Position numbers and translations under genes: made by a program. From assembly GCF_018918125.1 (NCBI RefSeq), contig NZ_JAHLQA010000019.1:1-64000 (forward strand): DNA of 64,000 nt, written 5' to 3'. Each line of letters opens with the position of its first letter. Position 1 is the stretch's first letter. Under the pieces are notes generated by a model that was not told the origin of the DNA, made no database searches, and saw only the letters and a list, made by a program, of their open reading frames with translations. This stretch comes from Blautia sp. MSJ-19. Lineage in GTDB: Bacteria > Bacillota > Clostridia > Lachnospirales > Lachnospiraceae. Below are positions 2,441 through 19,394 of this stretch, one piece after another.

Positions 2441-2500
2441 TCTGGTATCGTAGAGTATCGTCAAATTTATCGCAAATGTCGTAAATTTGTCGTAAAAAAA
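2441..2500 (+). repeat. Candidate integrase arm sites, left end
   Basis: The motif TGTCGTAAA occurs at 2477-2485 and 2488-2496, 11 bp apart, preceded by three related words (GTATCG, GTATCG, TTATCG). The same nonamer occurs twice at the right end (19215-19223 and 19265-19273) in the same orientation. Short direct repeats just inside both ends fit arm-type binding sites of a Tn916-like integrase. The function is inferred. Confidence 0.55.
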
Positions 2501-4912: not shown

Positions 4913-4958
4913 TGTTCTTTTATCAATAAAAATAAAGAAGAAAGAATGAGGTATGATT

Positions 4959-6346: not shown

Positions 6347-6363
6347 ATGGCTATAAATAAAAT

Positions 6364-6401
6364 AAAGCAGTCCGGCTTTCTTACAAAAATCGGGCTGCTT
6401 T
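6364..6401. terminator. Bidirectional terminator between parR and xre
   Basis: AAAGCAGTCCG and CGGGCTGCTTT form an 11-bp stem with one mismatch or wobble. It separates two convergent genes; the stop codon of the minus-strand regulator lies inside it. Confidence 0.75.
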
Positions 6402-6633
6402 AAGTGGAGCTGTTTTTACTTCTTGGATATGGACGTTTATCATCCGTCAGGTTTAACAGATAATCAACACTGGTATTATGAAATTCTGCCAGCTTAATCA
6501 GAATCTGAGTGGGAATATCAACATCGCCACATTCATAATTACTGTAAATACGCTGGCTGCAGTTTAAGATTTCACCCATATTTTTCTGTGTCAGGTCACG
6601 ATCTTCACGCAGATCACGAATTCGTTTATACAT
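6400..6633 (-). CDS. XRE-family repressor (Cro/CI-type HTH)
   Basis: 77 residues, essentially one helix-turn-helix domain: LREDRDLTQKNMGEILN, then SQRIYSNYECGDVDIPTQ, then LIKLAEFHNTSVDYLLNLTD, the standard XRE layout. I chose ATG 6633 because GAGGTGG precedes it; the GTG nine bases upstream would absorb that site. The gene is divergent from a small membrane protein gene, and the shared intergenic region holds two copies of a 17-bp palindrome. That fits an autoregulated repressor controlling the element's rightward genes. Confidence 0.8.
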   Translation of the reverse strand: MYKRIRDLREDRDLTQKNMGEILNCSQRIYSNYECGDVDIPTQILIKLAEFHNTSVDYLLNLTDDKRPYPRSKNSST

Positions 6634-6661
6634 GATTTCCACCTCATGCCTAATAATAAAC

Positions 6662-6703
6662 TAGCGAGATATTCACTATTGAGATATAGCGAGAAATTCG
6701 CTA
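6662..6703. promoter_or_regulatory. Tandem 17-bp operators for the XRE repressor
   Basis: TAGCGAGATATTCACTA (6662-6678) and TAGCGAGAAATTCGCTA (6687-6703) are two copies of one palindrome, 25 bp apart. The second has perfect TAGCGA/TCGCTA arms and the first has one arm mismatch. They lie between the divergent xre and membrane-protein genes. Binding by the adjacent repressor is inferred from position and symmetry. Confidence 0.75.
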
Positions 6704-6740
6704 CAATGAGTTCATAAACTTAGGAGGGAGAAGAAACAGA

Positions 6741-7004
6741 ATGAAGAAGAAGCTGAAAAAGGTTTTGATATGGTTTTTTGAACTGAGTTTATTTTGTGGA
6801 TATTTTTATATTTTATTCGTGAATCTGGTATGTGGATTTGGCTATGGTGGGATAGAAAGCAGGGGACAGGCGATTAAAATTCTGGCTGTTGCGTTCCTGC
6901 TGGCAGCCGGACTGCCGGGACTGATCTGGTATCAACACCGCAGGATCATGAAATTGGAAAAGTTAATGGATGAAGTTTTTGATATCGTCAAAAAAGTAAA
7001 ATAA
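6741..7004 (+). CDS. Small two-helix membrane protein, unknown
   Basis: 87 residues with a basic start (MKKKLKK), a hydrophobic segment at ~8-32, a second at ~48-65 and a charged C-terminal helix (RRIMKLEKLMDEVFDIVKKVK). AGGAGGG lies upstream at good spacing. I do not recognise a family. It is divergent from the XRE repressor and shares its operator region, so it is probably repressed in the quiescent element. A role in mobilization or entry exclusion is possible but not shown. Confidence 0.65.
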   Translation: MKKKLKKVLIWFFELSLFCGYFYILFVNLVCGFGYGGIESRGQAIKILAVAFLLAAGLPGLIWYQHRRIMKLEKLMDEVFDIVKKVK

Positions 7005-7078
7005 CAGAACAAATGGAGTCAAGTGACAGCGTAGAATAGATTCACAAAAACAGAATAACAGAGAAAAAGGTGGCAGTG

Positions 7079-7324
7079 ATGGCATTTTTCAGGGAGAAAA
7101 TCCTGGAGATGTTCATGACTGCCAATTTTTATGCCTTTGAACAGGAAAGAAGATGAGTCGAAAGAATAGAAACAGCAATAAAAGGAAATCTGGCAGAAGA
7201 AAAGGCAGATGTGGTCAAAAAGAATGGAGTGCCGGATACGGCACATGATTGTCCGGTACTCCGCACCGGAGTGGCATGTGAAAAGCCTGTTACGGAAATC
7301 AAGATTCTCTGCAAAGGGGAGTAA
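7079..7324 (+). pseudogene. 82-codon ORF split by an in-frame TGA
   Basis: From ATG 7079, after AAAGGTGG, 25 codons (opening MAFFREKILEMFMTANFYAF) run into TGA at 7154-7156. The same frame then stays open for another 55 sense codons, including KKNGVPDTAHDCPVLRTG and KPVTEIKILCKGE, to TAA at 7324. Both halves read like one small soluble protein. A nonsense mutation is the simplest explanation. Readthrough, or separate translation of the second part, cannot be excluded. A 31-codon basic ORF overlaps in another frame from 7153 (MSRKNRNSNKRK). The function is unknown. Confidence 0.5.
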
Positions 7325-7791
7325 TCTGGTTTTCCTACACAGCCTTTCCACACACCACAAGACCACCGTCATCAGCCGCTTTTTATTCTGGAAGATGCCG
7401 CAGGGAAAATGGTGATCCGGTTCTTACAGTGGGCGGCAGATGACAGGCAAGTTTCGCAAAGTGGCAAGCCACTATGCACCGGAGCCAGCCTTTGGGCTGT
7501 TCCTAAACTTGCCAGAGGGCTCCGCCCCTTGGAACCCCGGCACGTCAATAGCGTAAATATCCCTGCGAAATGTCCACCGGACATTCCTACGGAACACTTA
7601 CTGATTGACTAGGACTTGTCTCCGCTGCCGCTCCGGTCGGTGCAAAGCTGACGTCCACTGGACGTCATGCACCCTGCACCTGTATAAGAGAGCGTTGCAC
7701 TCTCTTATAAATCTCCTGCTAATATGCTACCAGAACGATGTACCTGTTAATAAAGAATGAAAAATCAGGCAAAGAAAGGAGATAAAAGCCT
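7325..7791 (+). other. Candidate oriT / nick region upstream of mobC
   Basis: No convincing gene. This is the most GC-rich, palindrome-dense stretch of the element and directly precedes mobC and the relaxase gene, the usual place for oriT. Visible inverted repeats are ATGTCC/GGACAT (7570-7584), GACGTCCA/TGGACGTC (7650-7666) and ATAAGAGAG/CTCTCTTAT with a 7-base loop (7684-7708). The nick site cannot be identified from sequence alone. Confidence 0.55.
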
Positions 7792-8172
7792 ATGAGAAAA
7801 CGAAATTATACAGTAACCATACGGATGAATAAAGCAGAATATGATCTGCTTCAAAACAAAGTGAAAGAATCTGGAAGAACACAGCAGGAAGTTGTGATAA
7901 AAGCAATCGCAGACTTGAAGATAGCATCGGCAGAGGAAGTGGAAGAACTGAAAAGACTGAACCAGATGTTTGCAGACATCCTTTGTCAGCTCCGGGGAGC
8001 GACTACAAATATCAATCAGATTGCAAGAAAACTGCATACAGATGGAGAAATCCCAAACGACAGTATGTTGTATTTCCTCAATAAAAATATTTTCAAGTAT
8101 CGGAAGGAGAGTGAGAGGATATGGCAGTTAATAAGACGATTAATAAGCGGACAAATACACATGGAGCAATGA
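7792..8172 (+). CDS. mobC: MobC-like relaxosome accessory protein
   Basis: 126 residues. The N-terminus (YTVTIRMNKAEYDLLQNKVKESGRTQQEVVIKAI) is a ribbon-helix-helix-like DNA-binding region. The C-terminal part contains LRGATTNINQIARKLH, the signature of bacterial mobilisation proteins of the MobC/PF05713 type. These bind oriT and help the relaxase open the nick site. AAAGGAGA precedes the start, and the last 52 bases overlap the relaxase gene. Confidence 0.85.
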   Translation: MRKRNYTVTIRMNKAEYDLLQNKVKESGRTQQEVVIKAIADLKIASAEEVEELKRLNQMFADILCQLRGATTNINQIARKLHTDGEIPNDSMLYFLNKNIFKYRKESERIWQLIRRLISGQIHMEQ

Positions 8173-9362
8173 GAAACTGCATCGAATATGTGTTGCGACA
8201 GGACAAGACCAGCGAATTGCTTACCTATGTAACAGGCCCGTACCGCTATGATGAGATTACTTATGATCTGGTGTACAGAGCCTTTCTGGAAGAAAAGAAG
8301 ATGTGGGATAAAGACACCGGGAGAATGTACGCCCACAACATTATTTCCTGGCATAAGGACGAGCAGATCACCCCAGAGCAGGCATTTGAATTTGGAAAAG
8401 AGTTTGCAGAAAAATGGTTCAGTGGATTCCAGACCTTAGTAGCGGTACATAAGGATAAAGATCATATCCATTGTCATCTGGTTACAAATTCGGTGAGTTA
8501 TGAAGATGGGAGAAAGCTGCATAACACCAGAAAAGATCTGGAACGTATGAAACAGTTTACCAACCAGATGTGTCGGGAGCGAGGACTGACAGTTGCCGAG
8601 AAAGGAAAGCATTTTGATGGAAGTCAGATTGAAAAAGGGGAAGTCATTGCATGGAGCAAAGACAAATATAATCTGTTCCGTCAGCAGGTAAAGGACAGCT
8701 TTGTAGCGGACTGTGCAATAGCGGTGTTAAAAGCAATGGAAAATTGTATCAGTAAGGAAAAGTTTATAGAAAAAATGAAGCAGTTTGGGTGGAACGTAAA
8801 CTGGACAGAGAAACGGAAGCACATCACATTTCAAAATCAGGATGGAAAGAAAGTGCGTGACAGTAATCTGTCCAAAACATTCCATCTGGACATCAGCAAG
8901 GAGGGGTTAGAGAATGAATTTAATGGAAATAGGCAAAAAATCAGAGATGCAGCCAATAGAAACTGCGGAGCAGCCGAAGAACTCAGAAACTATTACAGAG
9001 AGCTTGACGCAGCAATCGCAGATACCAGAGGAATCACCGATCAAGCTCAAAGTGGAGAGAGATATTCTCGTACAGAGTTTCGAGAAAGCGAAAGAGTTTA
9101 TGCGAACACAGAAAAAGCAGATACAGACACTGGAAGAAGAGAAACGGATGATCTTATCCGACAGGCAGAGATTGCGAGAAGAAGTTCGGAAATCAACCGT
9201 AGAAATTCAGCGTCTGACAACCGAACTGTCCGAAACGCAGAAGCTGAATCAATCGCTTCAGCAGAGCAACGACGATCTGAGGAACAGAAATGGCTTAATG
9301 AGCAGGAGCGAGCAAGAGCAGCTCGAAGGAGAAATAAAAGACGTTCGGGACCAGAACTCTAA
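8121..9362 (+). CDS. MobP/VirD2-type relaxase
   Basis: 413 residues. The N-terminal ~250 residues are a relaxase/mobilization nuclease domain: HGAMRNCIEYVLRQDK near the start, YAHNIISWHKDE, and the metal-binding three-histidine motif HKDKDHIHCHLV near residue 110. The catalytic Tyr is not certain; an early Tyr such as Y28 or Y34 is expected. It nicks oriT and carries the strand into the recipient. The C-terminal ~150 residues are low-complexity, Arg/Glu-rich and share their DNA with the next gene in another frame. The start follows AAGGAGAG inside mobC. Confidence 0.85.
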   Translation: MAVNKTINKRTNTHGAMRNCIEYVLRQDKTSELLTYVTGPYRYDEITYDLVYRAFLEEKKMWDKDTGRMYAHNIISWHKDEQITPEQAFEFGKEFAEKWFSGFQTLVAVHKDKDHIHCHLVTNSVSYEDGRKLHNTRKDLERMKQFTNQMCRERGLTVAEKGKHFDGSQIEKGEVIAWSKDKYNLFRQQVKDSFVADCAIAVLKAMENCISKEKFIEKMKQFGWNVNWTEKRKHITFQNQDGKKVRDSNLSKTFHLDISKEGLENEFNGNRQKIRDAANRNCGAAEELRNYYRELDAAIADTRGITDQAQSGERYSRTEFRESERVYANTEKADTDTGRRETDDLIRQAEIARRSSEINRRNSASDNRTVRNAEAESIASAEQRRSEEQKWLNEQERARAARRRNKRRSGPEL

Positions 9363-10008
9363 ATTGCAGATACAGGTAAACAAATCATCGGTTGAGGCAG
9401 TAGATGAAGCCCAGAGAAAGCAGAAAGAAGCGGAGAAAAAGACAGAACAGGCAGAAGCAAAAGCCCGTAATGAAAAGAAAAGGGCAGAGCTGGAAATCCG
9501 TAAAGCGAAAAAAGAAGTAAAGGACAGAACGGAAAATATGAAGGCTATGGAATATTTCTGGGGAATGGGATACGTTACGGTAATTCTGTTTGCAATCGTA
9601 CAGAATGGTGCTTTTCAGAATGACTTTATAGATTTTTTCAGGACTCCATTCGTGTGGTATGTTCGATTTTGTGAATGGTTGGTACATCCAACCTATGATA
9701 ACGGATTCAACCAGAAAATAGCATATACAGGTGGAGAAGCGTGGGTTATCAGGATTCTGGCAATCGTAGCTGTGCTTTTTATATTGGCTATCGTGATGAT
9801 AATAACCGTGGAAGTAGTAAAACGATACAAAGAAATGTGGGATGAAATTTCACAGATGTTTTTAGTTGGAAGTCTTTCAGGGATTGTAGTACTTGGAGAT
9901 GTAATCAGAGAATATCTACCTGTGAATTTGATCTTGTTATTTGGATTTATTAATGTGGGAATGATGTTGCTACGAGTGCATCTTCAAAAGAAATTTGATT
10001 ATCTGTAA
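8914..10008 (+). CDS. Coiled-coil membrane protein of mobilization locus (DUF6040-like)
   Basis: 364 residues. Residues 1-50 are polar. Residues ~48-210 form a long charged coiled coil. The rest is membrane-embedded, with segments near 215-235, 285-310, 320-335 and 340-357. It resembles proteins annotated as DUF6040 that commonly follow relaxase genes in clostridial elements; that match is from memory. The start is well supported: AAGGAGGGG lies seven bases upstream of ATG 8914, inside the relaxase gene. The first 449 bases overlap the relaxase in the +1 frame. It may anchor the relaxosome at the membrane or recruit a helper system, which is inference. Confidence 0.7.
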   Translation: MNLMEIGKKSEMQPIETAEQPKNSETITESLTQQSQIPEESPIKLKVERDILVQSFEKAKEFMRTQKKQIQTLEEEKRMILSDRQRLREEVRKSTVEIQRLTTELSETQKLNQSLQQSNDDLRNRNGLMSRSEQEQLEGEIKDVRDQNSKLQIQVNKSSVEAVDEAQRKQKEAEKKTEQAEAKARNEKKRAELEIRKAKKEVKDRTENMKAMEYFWGMGYVTVILFAIVQNGAFQNDFIDFFRTPFVWYVRFCEWLVHPTYDNGFNQKIAYTGGEAWVIRILAIVAVLFILAIVMIITVEVVKRYKEMWDEISQMFLVGSLSGIVVLGDVIREYLPVNLILLFGFINVGMMLLRVHLQKKFDYL

Positions 10009-10022
10009 AATGAAATAGGGTG

Positions 10023-10059
10023 AAAAGGGTGTAACCACACTATAGATTTACACCCTTTT
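10023..10059 (+). terminator. Strong terminator after mobilization operon
   Basis: A perfect 12-bp stem AAAAGGGTGTAA / TTACACCCTTTT with a 13-base loop separates the mobilization genes from the cargo. The T run is the end of the stem itself. Confidence 0.85.
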
Positions 10060-10354
10060 GGAGTTAATTTTGTGATAATTTTCTATCTTTATCAAGGAAA
10101 AAAGTGCAATGGTGTCAGGCCTGACATGACTTCCGGTGCAGAAATCATAGGAAATGTTAATAAAATCATCGTAGTAGGTTATTTTTTCATAGTCCTGGTG
10201 TTTTATTTTGGAAAATAATTCCTAATCTAAATCTTTATACAATCTTAATACAGAATCAGAGACTCTTATACCATCTTTGAAAGCAATTATATATAATAAA
10301 AACAGCACAAAGATAGCATTATTTAGAATCAATAATAAGGAGTTCTGATTATTT
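10060..10354 (+). promoter_or_regulatory. Promoter region of the potassium cassette
   Basis: No gene here. The AT-rich region holds a perfect 14-bp palindrome TGTCAGGCCTGACA (10113-10126). It also holds three direct repeats CTTTATAC (10233-10240), CTTAATAC (10244-10251) and CTTATAC (10265-10271), the first two 11 bp apart, as expected for an OmpR-type regulator. TATAAT is near 10292 with no -35 at normal distance, which fits an activator-dependent promoter. The repeats resemble the KdpE site of E. coli (TTTATAC core). KdpE binding is inferred. Confidence 0.5.
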
Positions 10355-11692
10355 ATGACAGAAAAAGCATATAAGAAAAAACATCTGACATCCTTTCAGT
10401 TAATTATTCTGGGGTTTGCAGGAGTGATTCTTTTTGGAACCGTTCTGCTGATGCTTCCATTTTCCACTTTGGATAAAGTGACAACCCCATTTCATGATGC
10501 TCTTTTTACAGCCACTTCCGCAGTATGTGTGACAGGTCTTGTGGTGAAGGACACCGGAAGCTACTGGTCTATGGCAGGACAGGCGATTATTCTTGCACTC
10601 ATACAAATTGGCGGGCTTGGTGTGGTAACGGTGGCAGCATCTGTTTCCCTTCTTTCTGGGAGAAAAATATCTCTTATGCAAAGAAGCACCATGCAGGATG
10701 CGATATCAGCACCTAAAGTGGGAGGAATTGTCAGATTAACAAGATTTATTTTAAAAGGGACATTTCTGATTGAAGCTGCAGGGGTGCTGTTGTTATTGCC
10801 AGTTTTTTTACCTGATTATGGTGGAAAAGGAATCTGGATGTCTGTCTTTCATTCAATCTCAGCTTTTTGTAATGCCGGGTTTGATATTCTGGGAACGGCC
10901 GACAATCCCTTTCCTTCCCTGACCGGGTATTCTGGAAATGCCCTTGTAAATGTGGGAATTATGCTGCTGATCATTGTAGGGGGAATTGGTTTTCTCACCT
11001 GGGATGACATTTATACGAATAAACTGAATTTTAAACGTTACCGTATGCAAAGCAAGATTATTCTGATGACTACCGCAGGCCTGATCTTATTTCCGGCATT
11101 TTTTTTCTTCGCCTGTGATCTAAAAACTCTATCCGCGGGGAAACGTCTGTTAGCTGCGGTGTTCCAATCGGTAACGACAAGGACGGCAGGATTTAACACG
11201 ATTGACATTTCAAAGATGAGTGAGGCTTCAAAAGCAGTTATGATCCTGTTAATGCTGGTTGGTGGTTCGCCAGGTTCTACAGCTGGTGGAATGAAAACGA
11301 CAACCTTTACGGTGCTTAGTTTAAATGCGATTGCGACATTTCGAAGCCAGGAAAATGCAGGGGCTTTTGGGCGAAGGCTGGAATGTCATGTGATAAAAAA
11401 TGCAGCAACGATAGCTATGCTTTATTTTACCCTGTTCTTTTGTGGTGGAATTGCAATCAGCGTATACGAAGATCTTCCACTTTTAGACTGTCTGTATGAA
11501 GCTGCTTCGGCTGTAGGCACGGTAGGGCTGACACTAGGGATTACACCGGGACTTCATGTCTTTTCACAAAATGTGCTGATTATACTAATGTATCTGGGAC
11601 GTGTGGGCGGTCTGACCTTGATTTATGCGGTGTTTTCTGGAAGAAACAAGGGGAATGCAAAGCTGCCCCTGGAGAAGATTACAGTTGGATGA
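10355..11692 (+). CDS. trkH: TrkH/KtrB-type potassium uptake channel subunit
   Basis: 445 residues, the usual KtrB length, with about ten hydrophobic segments in four M1-P-M2 repeats. The four pore loops are visible: TSAVCVTGL (~57), ISAFCNAGFD (~170), TTRTAGFNT (~272) and SAVGTVGLTLG (~388). Each keeps the filter glycine that coordinates K+. It forms the ion-conducting membrane subunit and needs a cytoplasmic RCK-domain partner, supplied by the next gene. It is the first gene of a five-gene cargo operon. Start ATG 10355 follows AAGGAG. Confidence 0.92.
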   Translation: MTEKAYKKKHLTSFQLIILGFAGVILFGTVLLMLPFSTLDKVTTPFHDALFTATSAVCVTGLVVKDTGSYWSMAGQAIILALIQIGGLGVVTVAASVSLLSGRKISLMQRSTMQDAISAPKVGGIVRLTRFILKGTFLIEAAGVLLLLPVFLPDYGGKGIWMSVFHSISAFCNAGFDILGTADNPFPSLTGYSGNALVNVGIMLLIIVGGIGFLTWDDIYTNKLNFKRYRMQSKIILMTTAGLILFPAFFFFACDLKTLSAGKRLLAAVFQSVTTRTAGFNTIDISKMSEASKAVMILLMLVGGSPGSTAGGMKTTTFTVLSLNAIATFRSQENAGAFGRRLECHVIKNAATIAMLYFTLFFCGGIAISVYEDLPLLDCLYEAASAVGTVGLTLGITPGLHVFSQNVLIILMYLGRVGGLTLIYAVFSGRNKGNAKLPLEKITVG

Positions 11693-11711
11693 GAAGGAGA
11701 AAGATAAAATT

Positions 11712-12359
11712 ATGAAGAATGTATTGCTTGTTGGACTTGGAAGATTTGGAAGACATATTGCTATGCAGTTAAGCCAGCTGGGACATGAAATTATGGCGGT
11801 TGACTGGAATGAAGAAAGGGTGGATAAAGTACTGCCATTTGTGACTAATGCACAGATTGGTGACAGCACTAATGCGGAATTTTTACGCTCCCTTGGGATT
11901 GGAAACTATGATATCTGTTTTGTAGCCATTGGAGGAAGCTTCCAAAATTCCCTTGAAACAACGTCACTTCTAAAAGAGTTAGGAGCAAAACTGGTAATCT
12001 CCAGGGCTGAACGTGATGTTCAGGAAAAATTCCTTTTACGCAATGGTGCCGACAAAGTGGTTTATCCGGAAAAACAGGTTGCAAAATGGGCCTCTATCCG
12101 TTACACAGATGACCATATCCTTGACTATATGGAGGTGGATGCTTCCCATGCGATTTTTGAGGTAGAAGTGCCAGAAGAATGGGTTGGAAAGACAGTAGGT
12201 GAGCTGGATATCAGGAAACGTTACAACATTAATATCCTGGCGGTAAAGGGTGAAGGGGAATTCAGTATTGCAGTTTCCCCGAATACATATTTTGCAGAGA
12301 ATAATAAATTACTGGTGTTAGGAGAATACAGGGCGCTTCAGAAATGCTTCCGTATATAA
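11712..12359 (+). CDS. trkA: TrkA/KtrA-type RCK gating subunit
   Basis: 215 residues. It has an N-terminal Rossmann RCK domain with the nucleotide loop GLGRFGRHIA, the acidic strand end AVDWNEERVD and a second strand with GDSTNAEFLRSLG. A C-terminal RCK_C domain follows (~135-215: VPEEWVGKTVGELDIRKRYNINILAVK). It binds ATP/ADP or NAD(H) and opens or closes the TrkH/KtrB channel. I chose ATG 11712 after GAAGGAG; an upstream in-frame opening would overlap trkH and add non-homologous residues. Confidence 0.9.
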   Translation: MKNVLLVGLGRFGRHIAMQLSQLGHEIMAVDWNEERVDKVLPFVTNAQIGDSTNAEFLRSLGIGNYDICFVAIGGSFQNSLETTSLLKELGAKLVISRAERDVQEKFLLRNGADKVVYPEKQVAKWASIRYTDDHILDYMEVDASHAIFEVEVPEEWVGKTVGELDIRKRYNINILAVKGEGEFSIAVSPNTYFAENNKLLVLGEYRALQKCFRI

Positions 12360-12396
12360 TTAAATTGCCAGAGTGACTGATAAAGAGGTGATGGTA

Positions 12397-12738
12397 ATGG
12401 TACAGGGAATGCTAGCGGTTGCTGTATTTTGCATGTTTGGGTTTGGCTTTTATATTGCCAATAAAATAGATCAGTTTTTGGATACCATACAGGAAACTGT
12501 CAAAGACAAACCGGAAGGAAAGCAGACTTTATCGAAGATACTATTTTTGAACAATCTTTCGGATAAAGAATTGTTAAAAGAGGTTCACGAGTGTAAAAGC
12601 CAATATAAAGAAGCAGAAATTATCATTTTTGATGGACAGGCTGAAGAGGCAGAAAAGATTTTGACCATAACACAGTCACATGATATAATTTCCAAAACAG
12701 CAGAAAAAGGGGATAGGCAGGATGAATCAGAAAATTGA
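12397..12738 (+). CDS. Unknown single-span membrane protein in K+ cassette
   Basis: About 113 residues. One N-terminal hydrophobic segment (LAVAVFCMFGFGFYIA, ~4-22) is followed by a soluble tail of ~90 residues (LSDKELLKEVHECKSQYKEAEIIIFDGQ). No family is recognised. It lies between trkA and the KdpD-like kinase gene and overlaps the kinase start by 17 bases, so it is co-translated with the sensor. Starts at GTG 12373 and ATG 12391 are also in frame; ATG 12397 has the best spacing from GAGGTG. By position it could link channel activity to the kinase, much as small Kdp subunits modulate KdpFABC, but that is inference. Confidence 0.65.
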   Translation: MVQGMLAVAVFCMFGFGFYIANKIDQFLDTIQETVKDKPEGKQTLSKILFLNNLSDKELLKEVHECKSQYKEAEIIIFDGQAEEAEKILTITQSHDIISKTAEKGDRQDESEN

Positions 12739-14695
12739 AGATGATACTCAAAAGGCAGATGACCATATTCTTGTATGTCTGTCCGCAGCACCCTCGAATC
12801 TAAAAATAGTAGATACAGCAGCAAAGATGGCAAATGCGTTGCAGGCTCGTTTTACAGCTTTGTATGTGCAGACCGGTACAAAAGCAGAATCCATGGATAA
12901 AGAAAAGCTGGAAGAACATATCCGGTATGCGGAAAAACTTGGGGCAGAAATAGTAATGACTCATGGGGAAAATGTGCCCGTGCAGATTGCAGAATATGCC
13001 AGACTTTCCAGTGTTACAATAATTGTTATCGGACAAAGCAATGCCAGACGAAATCACTTTTTCAGCAAATCAACTCTGACGGAAAAGCTGATTGAAATTG
13101 TGCCGGACATCGATATCCATATTATCCCGGAGGCGGTAAAAAACAGAACCTATCCGAAGCGGTCATTTACATGGTATGCGGAAAAACCATCTGTAAAAGA
13201 TTATTTTCTGACCGTTTTTATATTTGCAGTATGTACTTTAATTGGTTTGCTATTCCAGAAGCTAAATTTCACGGATACGAACATTGTAACCATATATATT
13301 CTGGGAGTTCTGCTTACCTCAATTGTGACAGATGGATACCTTTGTAGTATAGCAGGCTCCTTTTTGAGCGTATTCTTATTTTGTTTTTTTCTCACAGAGC
13401 CAAGAATGTCTTTTCAGACATATGCAGTGGGATATCCGATAACCTTTCTTATCATGCTTATTTCATCCGTACTTATGGGAGTACTTGCGGCAAAGCTGAA
13501 AACACATGCAAAGCTTTCTGCACAGCTTGCTTTTCGCACACAGATTCTGTTTGATACAGACTGCCTGATACAGAAGGCAAAAGGGGAAACAGAGATTCTT
13601 GGAGTTACCTGTACACAGCTTATCCGCTTATTAAACCGTAATATTACAGCATATGTAGTGGTAAATGGAACTTTATCAGAGGGAAAACTTTTCTCTGGGG
13701 AAAAAGAAAATATTGAGGATTTTTTAACACCAGAAGAGCAGAAGGTAGCCAAATGGACTTATGAAAACAAACAGCGTGCCGGCGCATCCACGCACCATTT
13801 CCCCCAAGCCAAATGTTTATATCTGGCAATCAGAAGTGGGAATAATGTTTACGGTGTAATTGGGATACCGCTACAAAAAGAAACACTGGATTCTTTTGAG
13901 TACAGTATTCTGCTATCTGTAATAAATGAATGTGCGCTTGCCATGCAGAATGCACAAAATGCCATGGAAAAAGAGAAAAATGCTGTTTTAGCCAAAAATG
14001 AGCAGCTCCGTGCAGATCTTCTCCGTGCAATCTCCCATGATCTTCGGACTCCGCTCTGCTCTATTTCCGGCAATGCAGATATGCTTCTTAGCAACAGCGA
14101 CCGCTTGGACGAGGTTACCAGGCATCAGATTTACACCGACATCTATGATGATTCCGAATGGCTGATCGGAGTTGTGGAGAATCTTCTTTCCATTACCAGA
14201 TTGAATGATGGAAGATTGAAATTTAAATTTACGGATCAGCTTTTGGATGAAGTGATTGCAGAATCACTTCGACATATCAGCAGGAAACATGATGGTTATA
14301 AAATTGTGACAGACTGTGAAGAACTGGTTCTTACACGTATGGATGTTCGCCTTATTATACAAGTTTTTGTAAATTTAATTGATAATGCCATAAAATATAC
14401 GCCGCCAGGTTCTGTAATCCATATTCAGGGAAAGAAATCTGGTGGGAAGGCGCAGATAAGCGTGGAAGATAACGGTCCTGGAATCCCAGAAGAAATGAAG
14501 CCTCATATCTTCGAGATGTTTTATACAGGGAAAACAACAGTTACGGACAGCTATCGGAGCCTGGGACTTGGTCTGGCACTTTGCCGCTCTATTATAGAAG
14601 CACATGACGGAACACTGGTTCTGACAGACTATACTCCGCATGGATGCAATTTTACTTTTACTTTACCCTTAAGCGAGGTGACATTAAATGAATAA
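12722..14695 (+). CDS. KdpD-like sensor kinase lacking the N-terminal KdpD domain
   Basis: 657 residues against ~890 in E. coli KdpD. A universal-stress-protein-like domain is at ~15-135 (HILVCLSAAPSNLKIV, TIIVIGQS). A four-helix DUF4118 membrane domain is at ~155-265 and a GAF-like region at ~285-410. A HisKA domain holds the phospho-acceptor His439 in RAISHDLRTPL. A HATPase domain is at ~535-650 (NLIDNAIKYTPPGS, DNGPGIPEE, SLGLGLAL). The ~215-residue N-terminal KdpD domain with its Walker motifs is missing. Residues outside the kinase core match KdpD more than other kinases. It overlaps kdpE by 8 bases and probably senses K+ limitation or turgor. Confidence 0.88.
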   Translation: MNQKIEDDTQKADDHILVCLSAAPSNLKIVDTAAKMANALQARFTALYVQTGTKAESMDKEKLEEHIRYAEKLGAEIVMTHGENVPVQIAEYARLSSVTIIVIGQSNARRNHFFSKSTLTEKLIEIVPDIDIHIIPEAVKNRTYPKRSFTWYAEKPSVKDYFLTVFIFAVCTLIGLLFQKLNFTDTNIVTIYILGVLLTSIVTDGYLCSIAGSFLSVFLFCFFLTEPRMSFQTYAVGYPITFLIMLISSVLMGVLAAKLKTHAKLSAQLAFRTQILFDTDCLIQKAKGETEILGVTCTQLIRLLNRNITAYVVVNGTLSEGKLFSGEKENIEDFLTPEEQKVAKWTYENKQRAGASTHHFPQAKCLYLAIRSGNNVYGVIGIPLQKETLDSFEYSILLSVINECALAMQNAQNAMEKEKNAVLAKNEQLRADLLRAISHDLRTPLCSISGNADMLLSNSDRLDEVTRHQIYTDIYDDSEWLIGVVENLLSITRLNDGRLKFKFTDQLLDEVIAESLRHISRKHDGYKIVTDCEELVLTRMDVRLIIQVFVNLIDNAIKYTPPGSVIHIQGKKSGGKAQISVEDNGPGIPEEMKPHIFEMFYTGKTTVTDSYRSLGLGLALCRSIIEAHDGTLVLTDYTPHGCNFTFTLPLSEVTLNE

Positions 14696-15413
14696 GACAT
14701 TAATCCTGGTAGTGGAGGATGACAGGCCCATACGAAATCTGATTGTCACTACATTAAAAACACATGACTATAAATATCTGTCGGCAGAAAACGGATTTTC
14801 GGCTATTTTGGAGGCTTCTTCCCACAATCCGGATATTGTTCTATTGGATCTCGGGCTTCCTGATATGGAAGGCGTGGAGGTAATAAAGAAAATCCGTACC
14901 TGGTCCAACATGCCGATCATTGTGATCAGCGCCAGAAGTGAGGATACGGACAAAATAGAGGCATTGGATGCAGGGGCTGATGATTATATTACAAAACCAT
15001 TTTCCGTGGAGGAATTACTTGCACGTATCCGTGTCACCCAAAGAAGGCTTGCCATAACGCTGGCAGGGGAGCAGCTGGAGATTTCTGTTTTTGAAAATGG
15101 TGAATTAAAAATAGATTATACAGCCGGCTGTACATATCTGAAGGGAGAAGAACTGCATCTGACACCCATTGAATATAAGCTGATCTGCCTTCTATCCCGT
15201 AATGTGGGAAAGGTATTGACGCATACGTATATTACCCAGCAGATTTGGGGGCGGTGTTTGGAAAACGATATTGCATCTCTTAGGGTTTTTATGGCGACAT
15301 TACGAAAAAAACTGGAACCTGAGAAAAATGGGGTGCAATACATCCAGACTCATATTGGTATTGGATATCGTATGCTTAGAATTGAGAAAACTGAGCAGGA
15401 GACTGACAACTAA
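14688..15413 (+). CDS. kdpE: KdpE-like OmpR-family response regulator
   Basis: 241 residues. The receiver domain (1-118) has the acidic pair EDD, the phospho-acceptor in IVLLDLGLPD, the conserved Ser/Thr region VISARSE and Lys in DYITKPF. The winged-helix output domain (~140-230: LTPIEYKLICLLSRNVGKVLTH, YIQTHIGIGYRML) is of the OmpR/KdpE type. It is translationally coupled to the kinase. With no kdpFABC in the window, its nearest likely target is the trkH promoter region, where OmpR-type direct repeats occur. Confidence 0.9.
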   Translation: MNKTLILVVEDDRPIRNLIVTTLKTHDYKYLSAENGFSAILEASSHNPDIVLLDLGLPDMEGVEVIKKIRTWSNMPIIVISARSEDTDKIEALDAGADDYITKPFSVEELLARIRVTQRRLAITLAGEQLEISVFENGELKIDYTAGCTYLKGEELHLTPIEYKLICLLSRNVGKVLTHTYITQQIWGRCLENDIASLRVFMATLRKKLEPEKNGVQYIQTHIGIGYRMLRIEKTEQETDN

Positions 15414-15429
15414 TGGTTAGTCTCCTGCT
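15394..15429 (+). terminator. Terminator of the potassium operon
   Basis: A perfect 11-bp stem AGCAGGAGACT / AGTCTCCTGCT spans the kdpE stop codon and is followed by TAATTATAT. The T run is short, but the stem is strong. Confidence 0.75.
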
Positions 15430-15447
15430 TAATTATATGCTCCAGTT

Positions 15448-15790
15448 TTAATTCTGAGAATGCTTTTCGTTGTGTTTTCTGCGGTTTTCTTTCCAAAGCT
15501 TGTCTGCTACCGGTTTCCAGTGTTCTGCATAATGGTCACATTTTGAACAGAGATGTTCAGCACTTTCCGGTGACGGCAGGTCAGTGGAATGTGCACCGGC
15601 AGTAGTAACCATTTCGCGAAGTTTCTGCGGATTTTCCAGCATCAGACACGGGCGGAGCATATTTTCATTGAATGGCTGATTCCTGTGATAAGCCATCATC
15701 ATTGGAGAACGCAGGGTTTCAAGTAAAGTCTTTTCACGGATGTTTGAATCAGAATAGTGAATGAATACACAAGGATCAATATCGCCATTC
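15448..15790 (-). pseudogene. C-terminal fragment of a radical SAM protein
   Basis: Read on the minus strand, the frame is open upstream of the first ATG and gives PCVFIHYSDSNIREKTLLETL, then NENMLRPCLMLENP, then HLCSKCDHYAEHWKPVADKLW. This resembles the cysteine-rich C-terminal end of a radical SAM family seen in Lachnospiraceae, where the cysteines bind accessory iron-sulfur clusters. The radical SAM core (CxxxCxxC) is absent. Homology seems to stop near 15790, where the next remnant begins. It is a non-functional relic, and the family call is from memory. Confidence 0.5.
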
Positions 15791-16290
15791 TGATACTGTA
15801 CGGAATAAAACGTGAAGAATTTGGAACTTTAGACAATTTGTTCTTGGCGATATTATTTCTGACTATTATACCAATTTGTTCCTACCCAATTGCTATCAAG
15901 AAAAATTCTCAAAGAGAAAATCGTAATAATCAACGAAAAATGGCATTTGTTTTTAATTTTATATCATATCTGGCGGCAATGCTGATTGGCTATTTGGCAG
16001 GTTGCAGCAAAATGTTGCAATGGATTTTTAACGCTTATTTTTTAGCAGTTATGATACTTACGATTATAAATAAAGGATTTAAAATTCGTGCCAGTGGACA
16101 TGCGTGTAGTTGTACATTACCTTATCTAATTTTAAGTGATTGCTTAGGATGGATAGTAGCAATAATATGTATGGTTTTCTATTTGGCGGAATTCTGGTCT
16201 TCTATTGAATTAAAGAGACATATTGTGAAAGAATTTCTTTTGGGAAGTGTCGTGGCGTGTCTGGCTTTTTTGATAACTGTATGGATATGA
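15757..16290 (+). pseudogene. N-terminally truncated PAP2-like membrane protein
   Basis: 177 codons with about five hydrophobic segments. FKIRASGHACSCTLPYL (~112) resembles the SGH motif of PAP2-type phosphatases; a second catalytic His motif is replaced by LKRHIVKEF near 157. The first ~10 codons fall in DNA that reads as the radical SAM remnant on the other strand, and no ribosome site precedes the ATG. The gene therefore seems to have lost its own start by recombination near 15785. If translated it would make a membrane protein missing its first helix. Confidence 0.5.
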
Positions 16291-16334
16291 AAAAAGCACT
16301 GAAACCGTTTGATTATTGGTTTACAGTGCTTTTT
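16290..16334. terminator. Terminator between remnant and second XRE gene
   Basis: AAAAAGCACTGAAACC pairs with GGTTTACAGTGCTTTTT with one bulged base, and TCTTTTG follows. It can work in both directions between convergent genes. Confidence 0.8.
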
Positions 16335-16397
16335 CTTTTGCCGAAGAGGAAAAATGCGGTGAATTTAAGTTTTGCTAAGCTTCACTCAGTTCTGCTT

Positions 16398-16943
16398 TTA
16401 CGAACACCATTTTTTCTTAGGTTCATATTTCCCACATCCATCACAGGTTTGAGGCCAGTTGATTTTCCATTCAAAATATTCATCTCTGGTAATCACACCG
16501 GATTTCAGCTCATCCATCCGAACTACCCATTCTTTCAAAAAATCATTCAGAATTCCATAATCAAACCACATACAGACAGGTGCATGAGCAGGCCAGTTAT
16601 CATTATCATGGTAGTAAACGGATGTGTCAGCTACTTCATTACATTTTTCTCCGGGAAATTTTTTGGGGAGAAACAGATGCAATGCAGATGGATTAAATTC
16701 ATCCAGCCAGAAAAGTAGTTCCATCATTTCAGGAGCATCCCGTCCAGCAGTGTCGTAGAGAGTATACGGGTTGACATCAAGTGCTTTTGCCATCTTATCG
16801 ACCAGATCTTTTTTCGGGACACGAACGCCTTTTTCATATTGTACAATTCTATGCTGATCGGTCAGTCCAATCTTCTCTGATAATTCTTTTTGCGTCATTT
16901 TCCGGAATGTCCGGATTTTTTTTAATTTCAGATTAAAATTCAT
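16398..16943 (-). CDS. XRE-family regulator with C-terminal extension
   Basis: 181 residues. Residues 1-70 are an XRE helix-turn-helix (LKKIRTFRKMTQKELSEKIGL, RIVQYEKGVRVPKKDLVDKMAKALDVNPYTLYD). The C-terminal ~110 residues are acidic and aromatic-rich (MMELLFWLDEFNP, VCMWFDYGILNDFLKEW) and end in a small Cys cluster (CDGCGKYEPKKKWCS) that may bind metal. GAGGTGG precedes the start. It is divergent from the structured RNA and the excisionase-integrase genes, so it may control excision. The effector is unknown. Confidence 0.75.
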   Translation of the reverse strand: MNFNLKLKKIRTFRKMTQKELSEKIGLTDQHRIVQYEKGVRVPKKDLVDKMAKALDVNPYTLYDTAGRDAPEMMELLFWLDEFNPSALHLFLPKKFPGEKCNEVADTSVYYHDNDNWPAHAPVCMWFDYGILNDFLKEWVVRMDELKSGVITRDEYFEWKINWPQTCDGCGKYEPKKKWCS

Positions 16944-17019
16944 AAAGCCACCTCTGTATTAGTCCTGATAAATTTCATTTAATATAGAAAAACCAAGAAA
17001 TGAATAATTATTTGTCCAT

Positions 17020-17047
17020 ATTATAACATAAATTAACAAAAAATCAA
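17020..17047 (-). promoter_or_regulatory. Promoter of the second XRE gene
   Basis: On the minus strand TTGATT (17042-17047) and TATAAT (17020-17025) are separated by 16 bases, upstream of the XRE start at 16943. Confidence 0.6.
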
Positions 17048-17090
17048 TGAAAAAGAGTACAAAAAAGAACCTAAAATGCATGAGATGGTA

Positions 17091-17119
17091 TTGACATTGG
17101 CAGTAGAGGGGGATATAAT
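17091..17119 (+). promoter_or_regulatory. Perfect-consensus sigma-A promoter
   Basis: TTGACA (17091-17096), exactly 17 bases, then TATAAT (17114-17119). It is a full match to the consensus and the strongest promoter in the element. Transcription should start near 17126, 420-430 bases before the excisionase-like gene. Confidence 0.85.
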
Positions 17120-17125
17120 GGCATT

Positions 17126-17391
17126 AAATCAAATAGGTACAAAAATGTATACCTACAAAAATGTGCAACTTTGATTACAGAACCTTGAAAATTAAATGAG
17201 CTGTATAGGTGCCTTTCAGGGCTTAAAGGATAATACAGGGTTCCACCGCTGTACCAGAGAGTAGGATGTGGGAGCCGAAGATACTCCGGCAACGGCTGGT
17301 ATGTTTGAGAAGAAGCTGCCAGTATTCAGAAAGATTTCTGATAGAGGTCAACTTCCCTTAGGATGTCGATAAATGTGCCAGTGGCACATTT
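17126..17391 (+). ncRNA. Candidate structured RNA or leader upstream of the xis-like gene
   Basis: No long ORF fits. Hairpins visible from the start are TAGGTA/TACCTA (17134-17155), a two-part stem TGTAT-CCTTT/AAAGG-ATACA (17202-17237), and AGCCG/CGGCT around a GGAG/CTCC pair (about 17270-17300). The segment ends with a 9-bp stem and 3-base loop (AAATGTGCC/GGCACATTT, 17371-17391) running into TTTT. A 18-codon ORF (ATG 17118-TGA 17174, after GAGGGGG) begins inside the -10 box, so it would only be used by readthrough transcripts. I recognise no known RNA family. It could be an independent small RNA or an attenuated leader of xis-int. Confidence 0.5.
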
Positions 17392-17557
17392 TCGGTAGTA
17401 ACGTTGACACCGCCTATACGAATGGAAGCCAACACGCCGAACAGAATGGAAAATCATTGTAAGCAGTCCAATCAAAAATAAAATGCACTGACAACGGGCA
17501 TAACCGCTGTCTGGGAGGTGATGCAGAAGAATACGGAGGAAAGGAGGTATGTGCATC
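17392..17557 (+). other. Leader between the RNA hairpin and xis-like gene
   Basis: No gene is supported. GGAGG words recur close to the start of the next gene, and a 19-codon ORF (ATG 17521) runs through that gene's ribosome site and overlaps its start in another frame, which could couple translation. No consensus promoter is seen. Confidence 0.4.
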
Positions 17558-17752
17558 ATGAGGAAAACAACAGAATATAATGCGGAGAATCGTCTGACCG
17601 TAGACATTGAAGGCTTAATGGCAATGTTATCCTGCGGAGAAGTAACTGCAAAGAAAATTGCAGACTATGCAGAAGCAAAAGTGATTGTTGGAAGACGTGT
17701 TCTTTATAACGTGGATAAGATAAAAAAATATCTTGATGCAATGGCAGTGTAA
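17558..17752 (+). CDS. Excisionase-like small HTH protein (DUF6462-like)
   Basis: 64 residues. The layout fits the short MerR-like winged helix of element excisionases: IEGLMAMLSCGEVTAKKIADYAEA then VIVGRRVLYNVDKIKKYLDAM. Proteins of this type directly precede integrase genes in Tn916-like elements of Clostridia. They bend the att DNA and direct excision. AAGGAGGT lies nine bases before ATG 17558; the upstream ATG 17549 abuts it. The integrase follows after 226 bases. Confidence 0.7.
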   Translation: MRKTTEYNAENRLTVDIEGLMAMLSCGEVTAKKIADYAEAKVIVGRRVLYNVDKIKKYLDAMAV

Positions 17753-17810
17753 TGAAAGATAAAAGGATAAAATACAACAACTTTCCTTCGGAATGAAAAA
17801 GGGGCAAAAT

Positions 17811-17855
17811 ATTCCTGTAAAAACAGCGGATAAAAAATTAGCATTTTGCAGGAAT
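17811..17855 (+). other. Hairpin between xis-like gene and int
   Basis: ATTCCTGTAAAA pairs with TTTTGCAGGAAT (12 bp with one G.U) around a 21-base loop. There is no T tract after it, so it is not a clear terminator. It could limit integrase expression or be a recombinase-binding site. Confidence 0.45.
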
Positions 17856-17978
17856 TTACCCTTGGAAATCTTAAAATATTATGTTAATCTGTGAGCAGAT
17901 ATCAGACAAAAATGACTGATACGACAGGACAAAAATCATTCCGAATAACAAAGAAATGAAGTGAAAGGAATGATCGAT

Positions 17979-19202
17979 ATGGCAAGAAAAGATAATAAAG
18001 GCAGAAATTTAAAAACAGGTGAATACCAGCGTCCGGATGGACGTTATGAGTATCGTTATAAGGATGAAATTACTGGAAAGCGTAATTCGGTTTATGCAGC
18101 TGATCTGGCGAGTCTGCGGGAAATGGAAAAGAAGATCAATAAGGATATGGATGATCTGCTTATTACCGATGCATCAGTCAAGAAGCTGACCGTAAATACG
18201 TTGTTTGAGCGATACATGGCAACAAAGAATATCAAGGAAAGAACAAAAAAGAATTATATCCGTATGTGGGACTATCGGATACGAAATACTTTGGGAAATA
18301 TTCGTGTTGTGGATTTTAAGACATCTCACGTAAGGACATTCTTTTCAGCATTGTCAGATGAAGGACTGGCACACAGTACGATCAAAGGTCTTTATGGCTT
18401 ATTGAATCCCAGTTTTGAACTGGCAGTGGAAGATGGAATTATCCGTAAGAATCCGGTAACAGGAACACTTGGAGATTATGGGACTCCGGCAAAGGAGAAA
18501 GAAGCTCTGACGCTTGCACAGCAAGAGAAACTTCTGAAGTTCGTAGAGCAAAGCAAAGTGTACAAGCCACATCTTCCAATGATGCAGGTTATGTTTGGAG
18601 CCTGCCTGCGAGTGAGCGAGACAATCGGCTTAACCTGGTCAGATGTGGATATGAAGAACAGGGAAATCCATGTAGGTGGACAGCTTGTATATTATGAAGG
18701 CGATGAGGGATATTGTTTCCATGATTCAGAAACCAAAACGGATGCAGGTATCAGAGATATTCCTATGACGCAGATGGTATATGATGCATTCCGCAAGCAA
18801 AAAGAACTGAATCTGATGCTTGGGTTACAGAGCAAGGTGGAGATCGGTGGACGTAGTGGATTCATCTTCAATACAAAGCATGGACGTCCGATCATGCCAG
18901 CAGGAGTAAACAGTTTTCTGAAAAATATTGTCAATGCTTACAATAAGAAAGAAACCACACTGGCAGAAAAAGAGAACAGAGAACCGGAGCTGATGCCTCA
19001 TATTTCTTCGCATATCCTCCGGCATACAGGATGTACCAGACTGGGTGAGAACAATGTTAATCCAAAGGTTATGCAGTATGTGATGGGCCATTCAGATGCA
19101 CAGATTACCATGAATGTCTATAATCATATTGCAGAGAAGTCTCATGTGGAGAACGAGATGTCCAAAATGAACCTGCCAGAAACGGTACCTGCTGTGGTAT
19201 GA
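17979..19202 (+). CDS. int: Tn916-type tyrosine integrase
   Basis: 407 residues. An N-terminal AP2-like arm-binding domain (~1-60: TGEYQRPDGRYEYRYKDEITGKRNSVYA) is followed by a SAM-like core-binding domain (~70-165) and the catalytic domain (~180-395). The catalytic signature is Arg in GACLRVSETIGL, HILRHTGCTR with the His and second Arg, the downstream His in GHSD, and the nucleophile Tyr in MNVYNH. It catalyses site-specific integration and excision. I chose ATG 17979 (MARKDNKGRN) eight bases after AAAGGAA; the upstream GTG 17961 would absorb that site. The gene ends 160 bases before the right att repeat. Confidence 0.93.
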   Translation: MARKDNKGRNLKTGEYQRPDGRYEYRYKDEITGKRNSVYAADLASLREMEKKINKDMDDLLITDASVKKLTVNTLFERYMATKNIKERTKKNYIRMWDYRIRNTLGNIRVVDFKTSHVRTFFSALSDEGLAHSTIKGLYGLLNPSFELAVEDGIIRKNPVTGTLGDYGTPAKEKEALTLAQQEKLLKFVEQSKVYKPHLPMMQVMFGACLRVSETIGLTWSDVDMKNREIHVGGQLVYYEGDEGYCFHDSETKTDAGIRDIPMTQMVYDAFRKQKELNLMLGLQSKVEIGGRSGFIFNTKHGRPIMPAGVNSFLKNIVNAYNKKETTLAEKENREPELMPHISSHILRHTGCTRLGENNVNPKVMQYVMGHSDAQITMNVYNHIAEKSHVENEMSKMNLPETVPAVV

Positions 19203-19210
19203 ACCATAAG

Positions 19211-19284
19211 TCGTTGTCGTAAAATGTGGTAAGAAAATCAGGAGAATATATTTTTCCAAAGATTTGTCGTAAAAATGTGGTCAA
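19211..19284 (+). repeat. Candidate integrase arm sites, right end
   Basis: TGTCGTAAAATGTGGT (from 19215) and TGTCGTAAAAATGTGGT (from 19265) are 50 bp direct repeats between int and attR. They share TGTCGTAAA with two sites inside the left end. Confidence 0.6.
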
Positions 19285-19364
19285 ATCAAGAAAATCGAGT
19301 GCGAAAGCAAGTGAAAAACCTCTGTGAAGCCCATAAAATCAAGGATTCACAAATTCTTCACAAA

Positions 19365-19386
19365 AAATTAGCACTCACCTCTTGAC
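19365..19386 (+). repeat. attR core repeat
   Basis: Twenty of 21 bases match the left-end copy at 2339. The repeat overlaps the clpB operator half-site and the first bases of its -35 box. Confidence 0.8.
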
Positions 19387-19394
19387 TTGGCTAA
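19368..19394 (+). promoter_or_regulatory. Degenerate CIRCE (HrcA operator) of clpB
   Basis: TTAGCACTC, nine bases, then CTTGGCTAA. The left half is a perfect CIRCE half-site and the right half keeps GCTAA. Spacing equals the canonical CIRCE. It overlaps the -35 box of the clpB promoter, where HrcA would block RNA polymerase. Binding strength is uncertain because of four changes in the right half. Confidence 0.65.

Follow-up and report, generated by a model that had tools for sequence, protein, structure and literature searches.

A cassette of five genes in the gut bacterium Blautia sp. MSJ-19 (contig NZ_JAHLQA010000019.1, assembly GCF_018918125.1) appears to be a self-contained and self-inducing K+ uptake module, which is carried as cargo by an integrative mobilizable element and includes a membrane accessory of the sensor kinase KdpD. 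We give this reading, which rests on sequence comparison, a probability of about 0.7. The stretch analysed comprises 64,000 nucleotides and is called the window as a whole; features lie on its forward strand unless stated otherwise. Evidence that KdpE would control its own operon is strong at the sequence level, and evidence that the unnamed third protein probably belongs with KdpD is good.

The cassette starts with trkH (10355..11692) coding for a Trk/Ktr channel subunit of 445 aa (PF02386, 196 bits). The adjacent trkA (11712..12359) encodes a KtrA-like protein of KtrA size (215 aa) with one TrkA_N and one TrkA_C domain (PF02254, PF02080). A TrkH domain together with a single-RCK partner identifies the pair as a Trk/Ktr importer; with 312.7 of 331.15 bits, TrkH fell just under the cut-off of NCBIfam model TIGR00933. 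The third open reading frame, ORF3 (12397..12738, 113 aa), was assigned as a membrane anchor by family alignments, profile comparison and the gene context in relatives, and carries a short piece with kinship to the LysR-effector-like part found in longer members of its family; further in-frame starts are present upstream of the called start. It is followed by a short kdpD (12722..14695, 657 aa). Pfam detected Usp (19.7 bits, cut-off 24), DUF4118, GAF_3 (21.5 bits, cut-off 27), HisKA and HATPase_c in its product, the Usp and GAF matches being weak, and no N-terminal PF02702 domain, hence the designation KdpD-like. The DUF4118 membrane domain combined with HisKA and HATPase_c is that of a KdpD kinase, and the NCBIfam equivalog NF007793 was the best-scoring model, yet under its cut-off (298 of 1123 bits). 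The last gene, kdpE (14688..15413, 241 aa), codes for an OmpR-type response regulator consisting of a receiver and a winged helix (Response_reg and Trans_reg_C), for which NF007820 was likewise the best-scoring NCBIfam model, yet under cut-off (209.9 of 325 bits). The five frames are tightly spaced, ORF3 and kdpD overlapping by 17 bases and kdpD and kdpE by eight.

Frames and Pfam domains thereby bear out an original prediction of five coupled genes for a Trk/Ktr importer, a KdpD-like kinase without the N-terminal domain, and KdpE. The prediction had also stated that kdpFABC is absent. This holds for KdpA, which was not found in the MSJ-19 genome (98% complete); KdpB, KdpC and KdpF were not searched there. 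A second TrkH gene is located elsewhere in this genome beside a 451-aa frame that was identified as TrkA-like by eye.

Candidate KdpE boxes upstream of trkH

The OmpR-type repeats that had been proposed at 10233-10271 proved to be real. Box 1 (10234..10251) reads TTTATAC-AATC-TTAATAC, with half-sites TTTATA and TTAATA and a 5-bp spacer, and agrees with the footprint described below at 16 of 16 positions. A weaker copy, box 2 (10265..10282), lies 31 bp downstream and agrees at 11 of 16. A sequence reading places a possible -10 element, TATAAT, at 10292..10297. The E. coli KdpE site is described in PMC3264566 as two 6-bp repeats, TTTATA and TTTACA, which are 5 bp apart, and the spacing in the window is the same.

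Upstream regions of 53 trkH genes were compared, comprising those of the window, of loci L009 and L010, and of 50 loci with kdpD on the same strand. Scanning with TTTATAC-N4-TTTATAC, a pattern fixed in advance without sight of the relatives' upstream regions, yielded shuffle p values of at most 0.05 in 33 of them. A refined pattern of 16 positions, TTTATACNNTCTTAATAC, reached at least 14/16 in 35 of the 53 regions, a descriptive count, while the reversed pattern and the opposite strand gave none and 200 rounds of base shuffling produced a mean of 0.02 regions at 14/16. The next-best copy started at +31 bp in 34 of the 35 box-bearing loci. Candidate sites with the geometry of the KdpE site, 6-bp direct repeats 5 bp apart, are present in the cassette and conserved in relatives, which together with the E. 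coli spacing (as given in PMC3264566) supports the proposed control of the Trk importer by KdpDE through these repeats. Within the MSJ-19 genome the box pattern without mismatch occurred once, at the window cassette; KdpE may control the operon that encodes it and, in MSJ-19, possibly few other targets. An Rfam search over 2000-20000 gave no match above gathering score, so no riboswitch was detected upstream of trkH.

The operon order was compared after a kinase search of 200 genomes of the family Lachnospiraceae, which gave matches at E ≤ 1e-60 in 53 genomes including that of MSJ-19. The surroundings of one kdpD locus per genome were compared with the window proteins in the other 52. A trk gene was located upstream of kdpD on the same strand and at a distance of at most 2.5 kb in 33 of the 52 relatives, and kdpE followed kdpD in 31 of the 33, an arrangement that speaks for the proposed module.

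Short KdpD and the ORF3 anchor

Loss of the N-terminal kinase domain coincided with loss of the pump. Of 17 KdpA-positive genomes, 16 had a PF02702-type region at the KdpD locus, as did 8 of 35 KdpA-negative genomes (Fisher p 1e-6, uncorrected for kinship). KdpA-positive genomes were the 17 with matches at E ≤ 1e-100; weak matches in G005, G124, G155 and G191, three of them above the Pfam cut-off, were omitted, and counting G155 and G191 as KdpA-positive changed p to 2e-6. Presence was defined by phmmer instead of a Pfam scan of each genome, the N-terminal part of the sensor protein from L049 having to be matched with more than 150 bits; regions on sensor proteins separate from the kinase, such as those of L049 or L058, were included. 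In E. coli, the N-terminal domain of KdpD is described as a serine kinase shutting down KdpFABC (PMC11018627). Copies or pieces of kdpB or kdpC were found just upstream of trkH in L045, L064, L066 and L067. We infer that a kdp-trk-kdpDE cluster lost the pump first and then the serine-kinase domain, which would have been dispensed with because no KdpB was left to phosphorylate. As a separate observation, the kdpABC loci L049, L058, L060, L069 and L089 each encode a short kinase and, next to it, a separate sensor protein that contains the N-terminal region of KdpD; the sensor protein from L049, which alone was scanned, contains PF02702, Usp, DUF4118 and GAF_3 and no kinase domain.

Binding of cyclic di-AMP (c-di-AMP) by the window KdpD is possible. 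The motif described for S. aureus KdpD is SXS-X20-FTAXY, of which S244 and Y271 were tested in that organism (PMC4686210), and the commonest form among relatives in which the pattern was found is SSS...FTALF. TrkA of S. mitis is described as binding c-di-AMP as well (PMC12453120).

ORF3 had been called unrecognised, and indeed no match above cut-off was obtained in Pfam or NCBIfam; its single span is read from one hydrophobic stretch. The protein aligned with the product of a small gene at the same place in relatives, and these proteins form an unnamed family. Its members exhibit one hydrophobic helix followed by the majority motif G-x-x-x-M-x-K-x-D-x-F-L-E-x-N, while the C-terminal part is variable and consists of little (25-60 aa in total), of a short alpha-beta-like piece as in ORF3, or of a longer part resembling the LysR effector domain. 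The first 55-70 residues of this C-terminal part in long anchors match PF03466 (LysR_substrate), corresponding to no more than the first 55-70 of its 209 positions. Three of five long forms scanned were above the Pfam cut-off (L045 28.9, L047 30.4 and L127 33.9 bits), L134 and L138 were below it, and PF03466 was not detected in ORF3 by the Pfam scan. The N-terminal helix-turn-helix (HTH) of LysR proteins is missing from the long anchors, no HTH family appearing in the results, and the hydrophobic helix takes its place. Short and long forms were linked by hhalign at 99%.

An anchor profile search of 397 family genomes matched 68 at E ≤ 1e-3, many of them only in the LysR-like half; the C-terminal half of the profile also matches many frames of LysR-regulator size (about 300 aa), whose identities were not checked singly. 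The gene context was counted among 83 fetched loci: a match of at least 22 bits starting within the first six profile positions defined an anchor in 46 loci, excluding matches that were weaker or started after position 6 (e.g. L043, L053, L152, L153 and LysR-only matches). The upstream neighbour was trkA in 36 of the 46, trkH in two, kdpC in one, a distant kdpE in one and none in six; downstream, kdpD followed in 40, trkH in four and no gene in two. The four anchors preceding trkH form part of a group that carries a TrkA_N-like part, for which the three proteins scanned gave E values of 2.6e-4 to 0.011, below cut-off; this group may be related to the ORF3 family. An anchor was present in 20 of the 33 trk-kdpD loci and in none of the 19 kdpD loci without trk (p 5e-6); in six of these 20, no Usp region was detected in the kinase. 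Outside the family, a search of 291 genomes of the class revealed the anchor half in G522, G442, G569, G565 and G471, always between trkA and kdpD; G508 and several weaker N-terminal matches were left unfollowed.

Two further gene arrangements were observed. Stand-alone anchors of 42-51 aa occur in L151 (3131-3277) and L148 (5995-6168), both closely preceded by a KdpE-type box and neither followed directly by a kinase gene. A second type of trk operon (L142, L144, L146, L147, L152 and L153) has a one-helix protein with a TrkA_N-like part before trkH-trkA, followed by a KdpD-like kinase (152-160 bits) in L142, L147 and L152; a 14/16 KdpE-type box lies just upstream of the one-helix gene in L153, and none at 14/16 was found in the other five.

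Frames shared with KdpD are the best evidence that the anchor probably serves the kinase, and they support the suggested link between ORF3 and the sensor. Anchor and KdpD form one open frame in seven genomes (G155, G027, G194, G174, G010, G289 and G707). There is no internal start with a ribosome-binding signal in G010 and G707, and the signal comprises four bases only in G155 and G027. Pfam confirmed the kinase domains in the four shared frames scanned (G707, G010, G155 and G174). Since the N-terminal region of KdpD is cytoplasmic, as described for S. aureus (PMC4686210), and frames are shared, the C-terminus of the anchor should be cytoplasmic as well.

Cargo slot of a predicted mobilizable element

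Upstream of the cassette, the window encodes a MobC/NikA-like mobilization protein (7792..8172; PF21983, PF05713), a MobA/VirD2-type relaxase (8121..9362; PF03432, 115 bits) and, as the last backbone gene before the cassette, a DUF6040 protein (8914..10008; PF19506), together with a D5-type protein (DUF5906) and an actin-like protein. Downstream lie an HTH regulator on the reverse strand (16398..16943; PF12844/PF01381), which is the first backbone gene after the cassette and occupies the same place in L244 and L249, and a tyrosine integrase with a Tn916-type DNA-binding domain (17961..19202; PF00589, PF02920), followed by clpB (frame 19401-22073). Integrase, relaxase and a mobilization accessory gene, recognised in a scan of part of the genes between 2485 and 19275, together point to an integrative mobilizable element. 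Its putative attachment sites are a 14-bp repeat, ATTTGTCGTAAAAA, at 2485..2498 on the left and at 19262..19275, upstream of clpB, on the right. The right site agrees with the edges of three of five same-genus stretches lacking this integrase at clpB: L206, L207 and L208 match the window from 19258 or 19269, L209 not before 19346 and L211 not before 19341. In these stretches the left flank was not found beside clpB, nor was a vacant site flanked on both sides; apart from pieces of other elements, they match from the clpB side only.

Backbone homology breaks off and resumes in relatives around a variable cargo slot (10009..16284). It stops at 10008 (L241, L242, L243), 9998 (L244) or 9617 (L249), at the DUF6040 end or earlier, and resumes at 16285 (L242), 16291 (L249) or 16407 (L244), shortly ahead of the HTH gene or inside it. 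At E ≤ 1e-100, 9 of 250 family genomes, MSJ-19 among them, contain copies of the backbone, as do same-genus genomes; a plasmid search gave two weak backbone matches only. Cargo was read in G700, G725, G694 and G191, four further fetched genomes (G232, G169, G152 and G102) being left unread. The slot harbors a GntR-like regulator and an ATP-binding cassette (ABC) transporter in G725, an AraC-like regulator and two ABC exporters in G694, and an AraC-like regulator and several ABC transporters in G191; GntR, AraC and ECF cargo names were given by eye, and one ABC gene was scanned in each of the three. In G700, which belongs to the same genus, the same DUF6040 gene is followed by a kdpC remnant, trkH, trkA, a 186-aa anchor with a LysR-like part and a 900-aa KdpD. 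This cassette has about 65% DNA identity to that of the window, and the contig ends within it, so that kdpE and the far side of the slot would lie beyond the contig. The slot has probably received trk-kdp cassettes at least twice. The element backbone, its variable slot and the differing trk-kdp cassette that follows the DUF6040 gene in G700 all speak for the mobility that had been predicted.

The cassette extent common to four other genomes is 10228..15444, with blastn edges at 10228-10231 on the left and 15389-15444 on the right against L009, L010, L170 and L171. Its surroundings, read in L009, L010 and L170, differ from those in the window and from each other. Plasmid searches yielded neither a close DNA match to the cassette nor any protein match to ORF3; KdpE relatives are encoded on 15 plasmid records, three of which were opened.

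Mode of action, alternative explanations and related systems

Under K+ shortage, KdpD would phosphorylate KdpE, whose dimers would occupy box 1 and box 2 from one side of the double helix, as 31 bp correspond to about three turns. The operon including kdpDE would be switched on and TrkHA would import K+. When K+ is plentiful, c-di-AMP may restrain both TrkA and the Usp region of KdpD. The target of KdpDE would have changed from the Kdp pump to a Trk channel. ORF3 would act as a membrane accessory of KdpD, its helix lying beside the KdpD membrane domain with the C-terminus in the cytoplasm, and might help in sensing, assembly or contact with TrkHA; the LysR-type effector piece of long anchors may bind a ligand. 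A tentative extension, which we regard as rather doubtful, is that the anchor is a third component, a transmembrane adaptor tying the KdpD sensor to TrkH-TrkA. A cytoplasmic Rossmann-like module (LysR-effector-like, or RCK-like in the group with the TrkA_N-like part) would read a metabolite or the state of the channel. The complete unit would spread as an exchangeable cargo cassette between mobilizable elements and chromosomes of gut Clostridia.

Several observations weigh against the original prediction or against a self-inducing module with a KdpD accessory. The five-gene order is a common Lachnospiraceae operon and not new in itself; of the common and fixed chromosomal operon that the original prediction had set against itself, it is the commonness that was found (33/52). 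No box at 14/16 was present in 18 of the 53 upstream regions, 13 of which scored 11 to 13 and five of which scored 9. Three of the latter belong to the second trk locus kind, the tested stretch lying inside the gene before trkH; in the other two, L077 and L126, TrkH is split in two frames and a 14/16 box is located further upstream. Moreover, the 16-position pattern was refined on the same loci, and several close relatives were counted as independent, which makes the box counts descriptive. Sites with at most two mismatches numbered three in the MSJ-19 genome and 16 for the reversed control. The c-di-AMP motif of the window KdpD reads SAA...FTALY, the second motif serine being replaced by alanine, and L128 has the same form. 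A plausible internal start exists in three of the seven shared frames (G194, G174 and G289), and 13 of the 33 trk-kdpD loci lack an anchor at 22 bits (two weaker matches, 11 none). In a Mogibacterium copy with 88% DNA identity, 254 bases covering the ORF3 helix are replaced by 23. Within the genus, 10 of 64 genomes including MSJ-19 carry the cassette lineage at 71% DNA identity or more, and ORF3 is absent in six of these ten copies. Window 12359-13135, which covers ORF3 and the Usp region, is missing from G263, G683, G694 and G725, and a comparable stretch from G716 and G741. The absence of ORF3 was checked with the profile in G263, G716 and G741 and is deduced from the gap in the DNA match for G683, G694 and G725. 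The anchor is kept in G701 and G732 and is in frame with KdpD in G707. As ORF3 is absent or deleted in many copies, it is dispensable and cannot be essential.

ORF3 might instead be a small subunit of the Trk channel with a KdpF-like role, its helix packing on TrkH and stabilising TrkH-TrkA. This somewhat unlikely explanation would account for trkA as the next upstream gene in 36 of 46 anchor loci, for the restriction of the anchor among the 52 kdpD loci to those with trk upstream (20/33 versus 0/19) and for the anchor-like proteins with an RCK-like part upstream of trkH in four loci and two weaker ones. It is at odds with the anchors located between kdpC and kdpD in L127 and before kdpD in L135, where neither stretch contains a trk match, and with the frames, which are shared with KdpD and in no locus read with TrkH or TrkA. 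Kinship with KdpF was considered for ORF3 on the basis of a GY near the helix end, alike by eye, and was rejected: with E limits of 5 or 10, Pfam returned no KdpF family for ORF3 and other anchors, nor did NCBIfam return one for ORF3, with the reservation that the HMMER filters drop most weak matches. Both libraries presumably hold KdpF models. We consider it distinctly improbable that ORF3 is what is left of a decaying LysR-like gene with a membrane tether, and now mainly a translational bridge from trkA to kdpD. Anchor lengths between 25 and about 180 aa, the ragged C-terminus, the natural deletions of ORF3 and its 17-base overlap with kdpD would fit such decay; Met, Gly and Phe of the helix region, invariant or at least 90% kept in 28 aligned members while the rest varies, would not, nor would the same gene context in five genomes of other Clostridia families or the KdpE box just upstream of the stand-alone anchors in L148 and L151.

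The cassette as a whole might be a normal operon of the chromosome that is situated near element genes by chance and was not moved by the element. In the same genus, the G263 copy is located between chromosomal-looking genes, and among the copies read none of this close lineage resides on another element. We nevertheless hold this explanation to be highly improbable, given that relatives with other cargo have the backbone to either side of the slot and that a different trk-kdp cassette follows directly after the same backbone gene in G700, whose far side runs off the contig.

Compared with the KdpDE-KdpFABC systems of E. coli and others, the proposed K+ uptake module shares the KdpD/KdpE pair, the 6-bp repeats 5 bp apart and K+ supply as output (site as described in PMC3264566). 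In contrast, its target is a Trk channel, its KdpD lacks the PF02702 serine-kinase domain, and it has two boxes 31 bp apart, kdpDE placed behind the importer genes in one operon, and an additional anchor. The Gram-positive TrkH-TrkA, KtrB-KtrA and CabP importers likewise consist of a TrkH channel and a single-RCK TrkA, and a TrkA of this type is known to be controlled by c-di-AMP in S. mitis (PMC12453120), whereas the window importer shares one operon with kdpDE and the anchor. The S. aureus KdpD described in PMC4686210 has a c-di-AMP-binding Usp domain, while in the window the second serine is an alanine and the serine-kinase domain is missing. Other kdpDE genes on mobile elements are kdpD2 of SCCmec II (PMC4686210) and those of Listeria plasmid pLI100. 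The latter carries kdpABC, unlike the pump-free Trk cassette of the window, and SCCmec II strains are described with a second Kdp system (PMC4686210). UspC and PtsN in E. coli and LprJ/LprF in M. tuberculosis are described as KdpD partners, and MgrB (47 aa, induced by its own system) and SafA as small membrane regulators of PhoQ (PMC3610689, PMC8534201). In a comparison of descriptions, not of sequences, the anchor resembles them as a putative accessory tuning a sensor kinase; it differs in being encoded inside the operon and sometimes in the frame of the kinase. An annotated counterpart is the same five-gene order on replicon NC_012780.1 of Lachnospira eligens ATCC 27750, where a 13/16 box precedes the TrkH gene and the third gene codes for a 59-aa anchor annotated as hypothetical protein (WP_041688905.1). 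It differs from the window in a shorter kinase (362 aa) and an anchor without the LysR-like piece. Among the titles listed from an open-licence library, none dealt with a Lachnospiraceae trk-kdpDE operon or an ORF3-type anchor.

The mechanism of K+ sensing by KdpD is still under debate. PMC8534201 describes sensing on the inner and the outer side of the cell as well as accessory inputs. Kinases that seem to have lost the serine-kinase domain along with the pump, and to be wired to a channel and a small conserved membrane partner, offer a compact system for asking what a minimal K+ sensor requires and what a one-helix partner contributes. A K+ importer with its own switch could serve many gut Clostridia, and two cassette versions in one cargo slot suggest that it is worth carrying.

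Strong terminators had been predicted on both sides of the cassette. Both hairpins fold, and neither was listed by a simple terminator scan. The upstream hairpin (10023..10059), with a 12-bp stem and an RNA fold of -15.1 kcal/mol (z -2.0), is the likely terminator of the DUF6040 gene. The hairpin ending the cassette (15394..15429) has a 14-bp core stem and a fold of -28.6 kcal/mol (z -6.9) and overlaps the kdpE stop.

Assignment of the HTH gene at 16398-16943 to the chromosome, considered on account of its position next to clpB in G680, was dropped, as the gene has the same element place in G725 and G694. It adjoins clpB directly in L211 (G680) and lies beyond left-end sequence in L207 (G701), unlike the outcome of a simple single insertion. 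The clpB promoter region (19258-19350) has the look of an integration hotspot, with differing repeat-like ends at the same point in L206, L207 and L208. The sequence AAATTAGCACTCA occurs at 2339, at the left end of the element, and at 19365, in the clpB promoter, as if a piece of the promoter had been copied to the left end. At the left edge of the window, 1-2232 encodes a protein with GBS Bsp-like and Ig-like repeats.

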